DNA from: Acidobacteriaceae bacterium
Lineage (GTDB): Bacteria; Acidobacteriota; Terriglobia; Terriglobales; Acidobacteriaceae
Direction of reading: 5' to 3'
Assembly (NCBI GenBank): GCA_903642265.1
Contig: CAHJWN010000010.1
Coordinates: 1-64,000, forward strand
Length of the DNA: 64,000 nucleotides
The translations under genes were made by a program, and so were the position numbers. The first letter of the stretch is position 1, and each line of letters opens with the position of its first letter. The notes under the pieces were generated by a model. It saw nothing but the letters and a program-made list of their open reading frames with translations, was not told the origin of the DNA and did not search any database. Below, in pieces: positions 10,143-14,370 of this stretch.

Positions 10143-10838
10143 ATGAATCTGGAAGTAGCACTCGCGCTGTTTGAGTTTGTGGTTCTGTTGCTGGCGATAT
10201 CGATACACGACTCGGCGCAGGCGTGGATGGCGGCGCGGCTGGGTGATCCGACGGCGAAGATGCTGGGGCGGATCAGCTTGAATCCGATGAAGCATTACGA
10301 CATTCTGGGGACGCTGGTCTGGCCGGCGATTCTGCTGTTCCAAAGTCCGCTGGTGCTGGGCTGGGGCAAGCCAATACCGATTACGACGCGCAACCTGAAG
10401 CGCTACAAGGATGAGATGTTCATCTACTTGACCGGGCCGATTGCGCATCTGCTCGCGGCGGGTGTGTGCCTTATGGTGCTGGTGGTGATGAAGCACACTG
10501 TTCCTGGTGCGGCCACTTCGATCGGGATTGCGTCCCGCCTGGCGTTTCGCGATCCCATGGTGTCGACGCTTGATCTGCCGGCCATCTTTCCCGTGCTGTT
10601 GTTCTTCTACTACGGGATCCTGGTGAACCTGCTGCTGTTTGCGTTCAACCTGGTGCCTCTGCCCGCTCTTGATGGCGGAAAGGTTTTGCGATATTTTCTG
10701 CCGTACAACGCGCAGAAGACGTTCGACAACATGAGTTTCTATTTGATGATCGGGTTCTTTTTCCTTGGGTTTCGGATCATCTTTTTTATCCTTGGTCCGC
10801 TGCTGGCGATCTTCAACGGCATACTGAACGCTCTGTAG
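10143..10838 (+). CDS. Site-2 protease (M50) homologue with degenerate zinc site
   Basis: A 231-residue membrane protein with about five helices, of the small M50 type commonly found just before trpS in acidobacteria. The active-site helix should read HExxH, but residues 22-26 are HDSAQ: the catalytic Glu is Asp and the second zinc-binding His is Gln. The other conserved motif, NLVPLPALDGG (about 169-179), including the third ligand Asp, is intact, as are GRISLNPMKH and the TGPIAH turn. As read, it probably cannot bind zinc normally and may be an inactive pseudoprotease. The position upstream of trpS and scpA is conserved. It has no PDZ domain. Confidence 0.88.
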   Translation: MNLEVALALFEFVVLLLAISIHDSAQAWMAARLGDPTAKMLGRISLNPMKHYDILGTLVWPAILLFQSPLVLGWGKPIPITTRNLKRYKDEMFIYLTGPIAHLLAAGVCLMVLVVMKHTVPGAATSIGIASRLAFRDPMVSTLDLPAIFPVLLFFYYGILVNLLLFAFNLVPLPALDGGKVLRYFLPYNAQKTFDNMSFYLMIGFFFLGFRIIFFILGPLLAIFNGILNAL

Positions 10839-10875: not shown

Positions 10876-12543
10876 ATGGTTGAGGCTTCTTGGCAGGGAA
10901 TGACTGATCCGGACGTGAGTTTAGAGCACAGTGCAGGAAAGACACTTGAGCGGCCGCGCGTGTTGAGCGGCATGCGGCCGACCGGCAGACTGCATCTCGG
11001 CAATTACATGGGAGCGCTGTACAACTGGGTGAAGCTGCAGCATGAGTATGAATGCTACTTCTTTATCGCGGACTGGCATGCGCTGACGACGGATTATGCA
11101 GACCCTTCGCGTTTGAAGCAGAACGTCTATGATCTCGCGCTCGACTTTCTAGCTGGAGGACTCGATCCCGATCATTGCACGATCTTCGTACAGTCACATG
11201 TTCCGCAACATGCAGAGTTGAATCTTCTGTTCAGCATGTTCACGCCCTTGAGCCTGCTTGAGCGAGTGCCTACTTATAAGGATCAGCAGGAGCAATTGCG
11301 CGAAAAGGATCTGGCGACTTATGGATTTTTGGGTTATCCGTTGCTGCAGTCAGCAGACATTCTCCTCTACAAGCCAGATTATGTTCCCGTAGGTCAAGAC
11401 CAGGAATCCCATGTCGAGCTAACCAGAGAAGTGGCCCGCAAGTTCAATTTCTTATACGGGCCAAAAGGCACCCCCAGTGTTACGCCCGATAACAATTCGT
11501 TCAATCAGAATGATGTGGACTACGCAAGAAACATTGACGATCTTTTGCACACCAGGACCATTCTTCCTGATCCGCAGGTCCTCCTAACTCCTTCTCCGAA
11601 GCTTCCAGGCATCGATGGTCGCAAAATGTCCAAAAGTTATGGCAATGCGATCCTGATGACCGACCCATTCTCCGTCGTGATGGAGAAGACGCACAGCATG
11701 AGCAACGGGGGGCAGCGGCCAACACAATACGATCCAGGCAATCCTGAGATTTGCCCTGTTGGCGATCTGCATCGCATCTTTTCTGAACCATCTGTAGATG
11801 CGCATATCAGGACTGGCTGTCTGACAGCCACTATCCGTTGCGACGAATGCAAGCACCTGCTTGGCTCGGCAATTGGCAGTAAAACTCACGGCATCCTGGA
11901 TCGCCGTTTGAGACTAGAGGAAGACCCCGACCGGGTATGGGGGATTCTCGAAGAGGGGACTAGGAACGCGACAAGACGAGCAGAAGAAACGATGCGAGAG
12001 ATCCGCAACGTGACTGGTTTGTCTAGAGATCGCTCAGGCGTTCGCGTCGCAACTCCAACCTACGGTCCTGGTTCACAGACAAATGTTCGTGATCTGACCA
12101 TTATGAAGGCATGGTGGGACCTCGACTCGCCGACTTTGCTGCGCAACATGCGCGAGCAATGGCGGGCCGACCTTGTGCCGACAGAAACGGCACTGAAGAA
12201 AGACACGGAAGGAGTTTGGCTGACCAGAAACAACCGGCGCGTCTTCTCGACTGCATCGACCGAACACGAAGGCGTAGATGGTCTATGGAAGTTCTCGGTC
12301 AAGCCGAAATCATACGAAATCCTTGTTCTTCTGTGCTGGGGAAAGGACTTTCTGATGCATGACTTCGTGGTTCCGCAAAAGCTTTACGTCAGTCAGTGGA
12401 CTGCTGCAAAGAAAGCGGCAGGAAAGAACGACATCCTCTTCTCTGTTGAGCGTGAAGACGGCCGATACGCCCTTCGCCTGCCTCTCTCGGAAGCGATTGA
12501 CATTACCGCTACAGAATCAGACTACGCAATCCTTGGTACATAG
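10876..12543 (+). CDS. trpS: Tryptophanyl-tRNA synthetase with unusual C-terminal extension
   Basis: It charges tRNA-Trp with tryptophan. The class I signatures are intact: GRLHLGNY (HIGH equivalent, residues 37-44) and KMSKS (250-254). Family segments such as PTGQ-like MRPTG, LLTPSPKLPGIDGRK and DPGNPEICPV are also present. Two features depart from the family. One is an insertion of about 30 residues before the KMSKS loop (roughly 196-228). The other is a C-terminal extension of about 170 residues (386-555) after the normal end, containing YEILVLLCWGKDF and HDFVVPQKLYV strands that belong to no TrpRS I know. The total, 555 aa, compares with about 330-390 normally. The start at 10876 is uncertain; the ATG at 10900 is an alternative. 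scpA begins 10 bases after the stop. Confidence 0.9.
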   Translation: MVEASWQGMTDPDVSLEHSAGKTLERPRVLSGMRPTGRLHLGNYMGALYNWVKLQHEYECYFFIADWHALTTDYADPSRLKQNVYDLALDFLAGGLDPDHCTIFVQSHVPQHAELNLLFSMFTPLSLLERVPTYKDQQEQLREKDLATYGFLGYPLLQSADILLYKPDYVPVGQDQESHVELTREVARKFNFLYGPKGTPSVTPDNNSFNQNDVDYARNIDDLLHTRTILPDPQVLLTPSPKLPGIDGRKMSKSYGNAILMTDPFSVVMEKTHSMSNGGQRPTQYDPGNPEICPVGDLHRIFSEPSVDAHIRTGCLTATIRCDECKHLLGSAIGSKTHGILDRRLRLEEDPDRVWGILEEGTRNATRRAEETMREIRNVTGLSRDRSGVRVATPTYGPGSQTNVRDLTIMKAWWDLDSPTLLRNMREQWRADLVPTETALKKDTEGVWLTRNNRRVFSTASTEHEGVDGLWKFSVKPKSYEILVLLCWGKDFLMHDFVVPQKLYVSQWTAAKKAAGKNDILFSVEREDGRYALRLPLSEAIDITATESDYAILGT

Positions 12544-12552
12544 ACCCACATC

Positions 12553-13494
12553 ATGGCTGAAGAGATAGACACCACCAACATCGAAGCGGCGCCAGCTGGA
12601 CCAAACGAATCGGCCGGAAGCTCGGAACCGTTTGTGTTAGAGCCAAGGCCGGTGGCTGAGCCTGCTCCAGAGCCAAGGAAGAGCGCCTCCGCAAAGGATG
12701 CGGCCAGGGAAGAGGCTTCGCAATCCCCATTTTCGGTGACCGTGGGGCAGGTGTATGACGGCCCATTTGACCTGCTGCTCGATCTGATTCGCAAGCAAAA
12801 TATAGATATCTACGACATACCGATTGCGCGGATTACGTCTCAGTTCCTGGAATACACGCACCATCTGAAGCAGACGGATGTGGATGCGGCGGGTGAATTT
12901 ATCTACATGGCTTCGCTGCTGATCCATATCAAGAGCAAGACGCTGCTGCCGCGCGACCCAAGTGATGTTGCGGGCGCTGACTCTGAAGACCCGCGGCGGG
13001 AACTGGTGGAGCGGCTGCTGGAGCATGAGCGGTTCAAGGCAGCAGCCCAGATGCTGATGCAGAAGCAGCAGATTGAAGAGGCGACGTGGTCGAACCCGGG
13101 GATGCGCGAATTTCGCGATGATGCGGGGACGGAGCGCGAGATTGCCGCCGACACGGTTGACCTGGTCCGGGTATTTCAGGATGTGCTGAGCCGCCTTCGG
13201 GAAAGGCCGGTGCTGAACGTCGATGAAGAGTCTGTGACGGTGGCCCAGATGATCGACTATGTAAAGCGCCGTCTGCTGATGGAGGACAAGCCCGTTTCAT
13301 TGAGACGGTTGCTCCAGAAGACACATACCGAGAGAGCAGTGATATGCATGTTTTTAGCGATGCTGGAGCTGGTGCGATTGCAGGCAGTGCTGCTGCATCA
13401 GCAGGCGGTGATGGGGGACATCTTGATCAAGAAGACTGACAATTTCGATTCGGTCTTTGAAGACCAGGCGCAGGCAAGGGATGACTGGCAGTAG
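12553..13494 (+). CDS. scpA: Segregation and condensation protein A
   Basis: The kleisin subunit of the SMC-ScpA-ScpB condensin that compacts and segregates the chromosome. After a disordered acidic/proline-rich extension (about residues 1-55), the ScpA core begins with the FDGPFDLLL-like motif VYDGPFDLLLDLIRKQNIDIYDI. It continues through IARITSQFLEY and IHIKSKTLLPRD. The C-terminal winged helix, which binds the other SMC head, includes VTVAQMIDYVKRRLL. The length of 313 exceeds the usual ~250 because of the N-terminal tail. In relatives scpB usually follows directly; here it lies 40 kb away on the other strand. Confidence 0.93.
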   Translation: MAEEIDTTNIEAAPAGPNESAGSSEPFVLEPRPVAEPAPEPRKSASAKDAAREEASQSPFSVTVGQVYDGPFDLLLDLIRKQNIDIYDIPIARITSQFLEYTHHLKQTDVDAAGEFIYMASLLIHIKSKTLLPRDPSDVAGADSEDPRRELVERLLEHERFKAAAQMLMQKQQIEEATWSNPGMREFRDDAGTEREIAADTVDLVRVFQDVLSRLRERPVLNVDEESVTVAQMIDYVKRRLLMEDKPVSLRRLLQKTHTERAVICMFLAMLELVRLQAVLLHQQAVMGDILIKKTDNFDSVFEDQAQARDDWQ

Positions 13495-14293: not shown

Positions 14294-14370
14294 GCACCCG
14301 TAGCTCAGCTGGATAGAGCGGCAGCCTCCGAAGCTGTAGGTCAGAAGTTCGAATCTTCTCGGGTGCACCA
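14294..14370 (+). tRNA. tRNA-Arg (anticodon CCG)
   Basis: The 77-base cloverleaf includes an encoded CCA end. The acceptor stem is GCACCCG/CGGGTGC with discriminator A. The D arm contains AGCTCAGCTGGATAGAGC. The anticodon stem GCAGC/GCTGT encloses the loop CTCCGAA, giving anticodon CCG (Arg, codon CGG). The T arm is AGAAG-TTCGAAT-CTTCT. No integrated element follows its 3' end. Confidence 0.97.

Follow-up and report, generated by a model that had tools for sequence, protein, structure and literature searches.

A predicted PD-(D/E)XK-fold tail on the tryptophanyl-tRNA synthetase of some Acidobacteriaceae, with a possible role in holding tRNA-Trp

In the window, by which we mean the whole stretch of 64,000 nucleotides from an Acidobacteriaceae contig that was analyzed, the tryptophanyl-tRNA synthetase (TrpRS) encoded by trpS ends in a long C-terminal tail for which a PD-(D/E)XK nuclease fold is predicted. 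Lacking a conserved active site, a domain of this fold would have become an appended nucleic-acid-binding domain, tethered by a flexible linker to the end of the native TrpRS. Its likeliest work would be to help hold tRNA-Trp where the enzyme's own anticodon loop is altered, and we consider the chances about even that the appended domain serves a remodelled TrpRS in this way. We infer that the domain binds nucleic acid, that its ligand is tRNA and that it makes up for the change in the loop. The tailed gene also appears to behave as an allele that is swapped in place with ordinary trpS by recombination among Acidobacteriaceae.

The trpS gene is a single uninterrupted frame (Table 1), and its translation agrees with the preliminary description of this DNA, which had reported a full catalytic core with GRLHLGNY and KMSKS followed by a 170-residue tail. 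The start codon is unproven, with another in-frame ATG 8 codons further on. The protein scores 253.3 bits against TIGR00233, above the cut-off of 176.75 for a bacterial tryptophan--tRNA ligase. Among PDB sequences, the closest solved homologue of the core is the T. maritima enzyme 2g36 (E 1.4e-94), to which it can be aligned as far as residue 381; about 170 residues remain. The cysteine pattern in the window is Cys293-x21-Cys315-x6-Cys322-x2-Cys325, and the motif, with a first spacer of 21-23 residues, is present in all 80 of the 80 TrpRS rows. Excerpts from the work on T. maritima TrpRS describe a C-x22-C-x6-C-x2-C [4Fe-4S] motif, placed in the anticodon domain (PMC2954223). The core and the four-Cys motif are common to both enzymes, while 2g36 differs in having no tail, in keeping the Thr-Asp loop and in a first spacer of 22 residues against 21 here. 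By its sequence, the window TrpRS is otherwise complete and probably contains a [4Fe-4S] cluster.

Table 1. Features of the tailed trpS locus, in window coordinates
Feature	Residues	Position	Strand	Basis
Upstream neighbour, presumed M50-type protease		10143..10838	+	ORF; flank of swapped allele
trpS, tailed TrpRS, 555 aa		10876..12543	+	ORF and translation; TIGR00233; PDB 2g36
TrpRS core	26-385	10951..12030	+	phmmer against 2g36, residues 27-195 and 229-381 covered
HIGH-type motif GRLHLGNY	37-44	10984..11007	+	sequence
Length-variable insertion	about 197-229	11464..11562	+	gap between two 2g36-aligned stretches
KMSKS	250-254	11623..11637	+	sequence
Altered anticodon loop MSNGGQRPTQ	275-284	11698..11727	+	ungapped alignment to 2g36
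Probable [4Fe-4S] cysteine motif	Cys293, 315, 322, 325	11752..11850	+	four Cys invariant in alignment of relatives
Predicted flexible linker	386-401	12031..12078	+	pLDDT <50 in full-length model; tail residues 1-5 and 12-16 <50 in tail model
Predicted PD-(D/E)XK-fold domain	about 406-555	12091..12540	+	AlphaFold model, fold searches; active-site motif not conserved
Downstream neighbour, presumed ScpA-type protein		12553..13494	+	ORF; control gene tree

The statement that TrpRS usually ends after 330-390 residues is right. Measured from the start of KMSKS, TrpRS length is bimodal, with tailless relatives stopping after 133-151 residues and tailed ones after 287-329. An internal insertion had also been noted near residues 196-228. 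It is real, appearing as a gap against 2g36, and it is nothing unusual: the region separates the Rossmann core from the KMSKS segment and spans 28-84 residues, motif to motif, across relatives (28-59 in 42 tailed rows and 30-84 in 67 tailless rows, the longest being tailless). The insertion of about 30 residues is ordinary length variation. The sole tRNA gene found in the window is tRNA-Arg (anticodon CCG) at 14294-14370.

At the level of sequence, the tail is an extra domain that fits no curated family, in line with the preliminary description, which could match it to no tRNA-binding domain: residues 386-555 have no match in Pfam, NCBIfam, PDB sequences or PHROGs, and no defence family was matched in PADLOC. 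Among 25 tails, nine Pfam families were each matched by a single tail (best E 0.0025, Phage_gp53), and a PDB profile search with the same number of tails gave a best E of 0.16; both were taken as chance.

The tail was modelled by AlphaFold2 from an alignment of 16 related tails plus that of the window, giving a mean pLDDT of 90.5 and a pTM of 0.84. The full-length TrpRS model was weak (pLDDT 79.8, pTM 0.58), with a weak core and with residues 386-401 disordered; as this stretch is disordered in the model, the domain would be tethered. Structure prediction, which the preliminary description had proposed, thus returned a compact domain, and its leading structural matches are PD-(D/E)XK nucleases. 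Foldseek against the PDB gave five matches at E <=0.001, all NhoI, the best at 9e-5. Ranks 1-20 were all restriction endonucleases (NhoI, Eco15I, DpnI and PvuII), with unrelated proteins from rank 21, and the TM-scores of these first 20 rows were low, at 0.29-0.42 by query length. VIA-align, a re-examination of Foldseek's own list, placed I-Ssp6803I first (2ost; Z 9.8, 116 residues, rmsd 3.2), followed by restriction enzymes from Z 7.9 downward, a range (Z <8) in which, by the tool's own warning, a score can reflect a common arrangement. MepB, Hjc and SPARDA chains were also among the VIA-align matches listed; we take the best 50 rows to be nucleases or nuclease-like proteins of the same fold class, MepB being an unsure member. 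Because Foldseek and VIA-align agree on one fold class, the predicted assignment of the tail domain to the PD-(D/E)XK alpha-beta nuclease fold is well supported. No viral fold matched the tail at E <=0.001, the best being a Phormidium phage protein at E 0.003.

The nearest fold to the tail is therefore that of I-Ssp6803I, a PD-(D/E)XK homing endonuclease. The two share 9% identity, and the tail differs in having no conserved nuclease motif and in being fused to an aminoacyl-tRNA synthetase. The N-terminal domain of NhoI and Eco15I, together with DpnI and PvuII, is alike in fold (Foldseek E 9e-5 for NhoI, VIA-align Z 7-8); these proteins act on or read DNA, and they show no sequence-level match to the tail.

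Across 27 tail sequences there is no conserved acidic/Lys catalytic pair of the form D...(D/E/Q)xK, as judged by conservation rather than by superposition on a solved structure. The loose pattern D-x(5,25)-[DEQ]-x-K is present in 8 of the 27, at scattered positions. Since no catalytic motif is conserved, we take the tail to be a probably non-cutting descendant, a domain of PD-(D/E)XK fold. Basic positions are conserved in the same set: Arg454 and Arg455 (K/R in 85% and 96%), Lys478 (K/R in 96%) and Lys502 (K in 81%), as are Trp471 and Pro500. Over 41 tailed rows, counting duplicates, the tail has a median pI of 8.6 and the core one of 6.1; the net charge of the tail is barely positive, with a median of +2, a range of -4 to +6 and a value of +1 in the window. 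Of 16 pairs compared, 6 gave a tail dN/dS, which lies at 0.085-0.17; three of these six values are rough, their synonymous distance exceeding 2, and the other 10 pairs yield no value, mostly through saturation. Core dN/dS is 0.03-0.113 in 14 pairs. The tail is under purifying selection, weaker than that on the core.

We searched 298 genomes of the order for the tail and obtained matches in 27, comprising 24 TrpRS tails, one tail on an aspartyl-tRNA synthetase (AspRS, in G014) and two weak matches (G133 and G231); the weak matches and a second match in G085 were dropped. Other acidobacterial TrpRS thus carry the tail, a point that the preliminary description had put forward for testing. It had also named two outcomes that would refute its observation, namely a tail common to all TrpRS of the family and a frameshift joining two genes. 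Most of the searched genomes yielded no tail. As a tailed trpS with an intact reading frame turns up in 24 of the 298 genomes, neither a frameshift nor a chance fusion explains it, and we ruled out such an artefact. Sixteen contigs of named genomes have the tailed architecture too, and ten of these, going by length, are already present in the 298-genome set; Bryocella elongata DSM 22489 is among the named carriers, as are metagenome-assembled genomes labelled Granulicella sapmiensis, Edaphobacter sp. and Terracidiphilus sp. At the level of the phylum, where distant members may escape a first look, the tail profile matched 8 of 396 genomes, all of the same family, and a search for the stand-alone domain matched 3 of 297. 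That the tail is a minority trait of TrpRS is well supported.

The domain is also found outside TrpRS. A second domain search, with its frames read, placed a divergent tail on the AspRS of G012. Its matches below rank 20 were dropped except for G012 and G085, the latter lying inside the tailed trpS of that genome; a match in G071, on the trpS frame and not in a tailed trpS, was dropped as well, and six other low-rank matches that we read proved by eye to be unrelated (TetR-like and others). A stand-alone protein of 232 aa in G225 carries the tail domain at its C-terminus (L123:1823-2521), in a gene that presumably sits between TrmFO-like and Der-like genes. The G225 and G014 domains matched no Pfam family. 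Of 200 genomes of the family, 190 yielded an AspRS, and the AspRS C-termini were read for a chosen part of them (17 loci, G012 and four more). Frames with a length above 690 numbered 13 among the matches listed, and 12 were read (all except G047): two have the tail domain (G014 and G012), two another extension (G135 and G189) and eight ordinary C-termini. The extension in G135 (L169) and G189 (L174) is different and longer, reaching about 235 residues beyond the usual end. Synthetase C-termini in this family seem prone to domain gain.

The presence of tails on two unrelated synthetases, TrpRS and AspRS, would point to a role in tRNA handling. The tailed AspRS show no visible accompanying change in the remainder of the enzyme, which weakens a general model of compensation. 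Presence on AspRS and in a stand-alone protein would equally suit a general adaptor, so the tail might instead bind DNA, such as its own promoter, or a protein partner, and so provide TrpRS with a further function that has nothing to do with charging. Most familiar examples of the fold act on DNA, as such a role would lead one to expect. It leaves the change in the loop that accompanies the tail unexplained, and we judge it quite unlikely.

That loop change is what singles out tRNA-Trp in the reading we prefer, of a tail that helps TrpRS hold its tRNA. In the passages of PMC12135181 on the E. coli TrpRS-tRNA complex, the anticodon is read by the loop Arg222-Ser227: C35 is contacted by Thr225 and Asp226 (with Lys274), and A36 by Ser227 and the main chain of Thr225. 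The authors call these loop residues conserved in bacteria (same passages). The E. coli enzyme belongs to the same family and has Thr225-Asp226 in its loop, and it differs in being 334 residues long with no C-terminal extension. In an ungapped alignment, Thr-Asp-Pro of 2g36 falls opposite Asn277-Gly278-Gly279 of the window. The three window residues would be the equivalents of E. coli Thr225-Asp226-Ser227, an equivalence reached via 2g36 rather than by direct alignment to the E. coli sequence.

Thr-Asp is kept in all tailless rows (39/39, 28/28 and 7/7, which make 73 genomes after one duplicate is removed). Tailed TrpRS fall into two clades, A and B. In clade A, none of the 34 rows, which represent 24 distinct records when contigs in common are counted once, retains the Asp, and a Terracidiphilus-like subgroup keeps Thr before Asn, Ser or Gly. 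In clade B, Thr-Asp is kept in 7 of 7 rows, and in the same seven the segment from Thr-Asp to the first cysteine is shortened. With the G227 fragment left out of these counts, tail and altered loop occur together in every tailed row that covers the loop, an association that rests on two clades and not on many events. Two separate tailed clades, each with a changed anticodon loop, would point to tRNA as the target. The preliminary description had left the tail free to bind tRNA, another protein or DNA; that choice is now narrowed, with tRNA favored by the predicted nuclease fold, the occurrence on TrpRS and AspRS and the altered loop, while tRNA binding itself is a step that we infer.

An altered loop does not require a tail: T. 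thermophilus TrpRS (2el7, 337 residues) is tailless and has Asp-Asp-Pro in the loop in place of Thr-Asp. By this sequence comparison, the T. thermophilus enzyme counts against the tail being necessary for an altered loop. It would also suit a tail that adds only stability or solubility, with the loop change being an unrelated clade marker. Loop and tail may then have been inherited together within each clade, of which there are only two, and the faster evolution of the tail relative to the core, by the dN/dS ranges given above, is in keeping with a mild structural add-on. The compactness of the domain and its conserved basic and aromatic positions speak against this account, as does the presence of the altered loop in both of two separate tailed clades. 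We regard it as very unlikely, the least probable of the alternatives that we weighed.

The tRNA itself shows no matching change. We aligned 28 tRNA-Trp sequences, drawn from 28 genomes out of the 30 in which NusG was sought, and found no difference that tracks the tail. All 14 members seen from the genus of the window (6 tailed, 8 tailless) have an identical tRNA-Trp. In genus g6, the tailed G155 and G291 differ from the third tailed member and from the tailless ones. No second or suppressor tRNA-Trp was found: one gene is present in 14 of 15 genomes, and G010 has no match. A 17-base tRNA-Trp match in G006 was taken as chance. An altered tRNA-Trp as the reason for the tail is not supported, since the sequence does not change with the tail.

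The history of the gene was followed on trees of the TrpRS core (68 rows) and of ScpA (56 rows); the TrpRS trees omit identical cores and fragments shorter than 250 residues, and the ScpA tree also omits short ScpA matches. The downstream neighbour, which we take to be an ScpA-type protein, adjoins trpS at 79 of 85 loci examined by tblastn, and the upstream neighbour, presumably an M50-type protease, was matched at 54 of 85, many with short flanks. On the TrpRS core tree, tailed enzymes form two groups, clade A with 23 rows and clade B with 7, the latter lying within tailless ones, and the tail label changes twice. On the ScpA tree, which mixes tailed and tailless species, it changes 9 times, with at least 8 of these changes forced by supported branches. 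The tree of the tails is short and long-branched, and it keeps clades A and B separate; it would suit two independent gains of the tail as well as its passage from one clade to the other.

G033, which is tailed, and G006, which is not, are a sister pair whose ScpA proteins are nearly alike. Outside trpS, the DNA of the two is mostly 81-95% identical, and lower in a few gapped blocks. Within trpS, the opening two blocks of 100 bases are 93% and 89% identical and the remainder of the shared part is at 46-82%; downstream, identity returns to 77-94%. This drop inside trpS between similar flanks indicates that one allele took the place of the other on at least one occasion; in this one pair, in-place allele exchange by recombination is observed. 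The pairs G141/G083, G085/G244 and G091/G028 are compatible with exchange and less clear, with more diverged flanks. Ancient duplication with repeated loss may account for the wider pattern of tailed and tailless genes.

In-place swaps between close relatives are also what would be expected of a resistance-type allele. The tailed TrpRS might evade a poison of the enzyme, such as an indolmycin-like antibiotic or a toxin kinase, with the tail shielding the enzyme or supporting an altered core. Indolmycin-resistant TrpRS copies are known (PMC9437257), and a paper on HipA-type kinases mentions trpS. Each tailed genome listed gave a single TrpRS match and no second copy, apart from G227, where trpS sits at the edge of a contig and no match was obtained. 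The DxHA motif has a His that is linked to indolmycin, and tailed and tailless types both have it. Both observations weigh against escape from a poison, which we consider unlikely.

The exchange could also be the trace of a homing event, in which a PD-(D/E)XK homing enzyme would have entered the 3' end of trpS (and aspS) in the reading frame and then spread by cleaving alleles that lacked it, carrying the core along by co-conversion, before it lost its activity. We find this doubtful and rank it below both poison escape and a second, DNA- or partner-binding job. It would suit the homing enzyme I-Ssp6803I being the best structural match, the 5' breakpoint within trpS of the replacement in G033/G006 and the patchy spread among genomes, but the active site is not conserved and the tail is under purifying selection. 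The window tail has no phage or plasmid match by sequence, and the stand-alone relative of the tail gives a single weak plasmid match (E 0.4). Nor is there a link to a group I intron: RF00028 is above its cut-off in 0 of 12 genomes, and the tail is an in-frame fusion, not intron-encoded. A role for the tail in group I intron splicing was rejected on the same count, with matches below the cut-off in one tailed and one tailless genome. These sub-threshold matches, at 42-45 bits against a cut-off of 50, lie in G033 (tailed; L189) and G028 (tailless; L190 and L191).

Appended synthetase domains are already known, and Plasmodium falciparum TrpRS reportedly carries one; the likeness lies in an extra domain on TrpRS, and the difference in its being a eukaryotic enzyme. 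As far as sequence comparison goes, a nuclease-fold domain on a bacterial TrpRS was not found in Pfam, NCBIfam, PHROGs, PADLOC, PDB sequences or the open-licence literature searched; among the titles and abstract openings listed from that literature there was likewise no aminoacyl-tRNA synthetase with a nuclease-fold tail and no TrpRS C-terminal extension like that of the window. Extending the preferred reading of a tRNA-holding tail, we put forward a wider picture only tentatively. The standard anticodon-reading loop may have been dismantled and its task passed to a C-terminal dead nuclease domain, with the rebuilt TrpRS a swappable allele of an essential gene that moves between genera while the tRNA stays constant. 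The family of dead-nuclease tails, small and lineage-restricted so far, may have joined a class I and a class II synthetase on separate occasions.

If the tail does help to hold or read the tRNA, recognition in a well-conserved enzyme-tRNA pair would be rebuildable with no change in the tRNA. Natural tailed and tailless relatives with identical tRNA-Trp make this idea directly testable. The in-place exchange of trpS is a clear case of recombination inside an essential translation gene.
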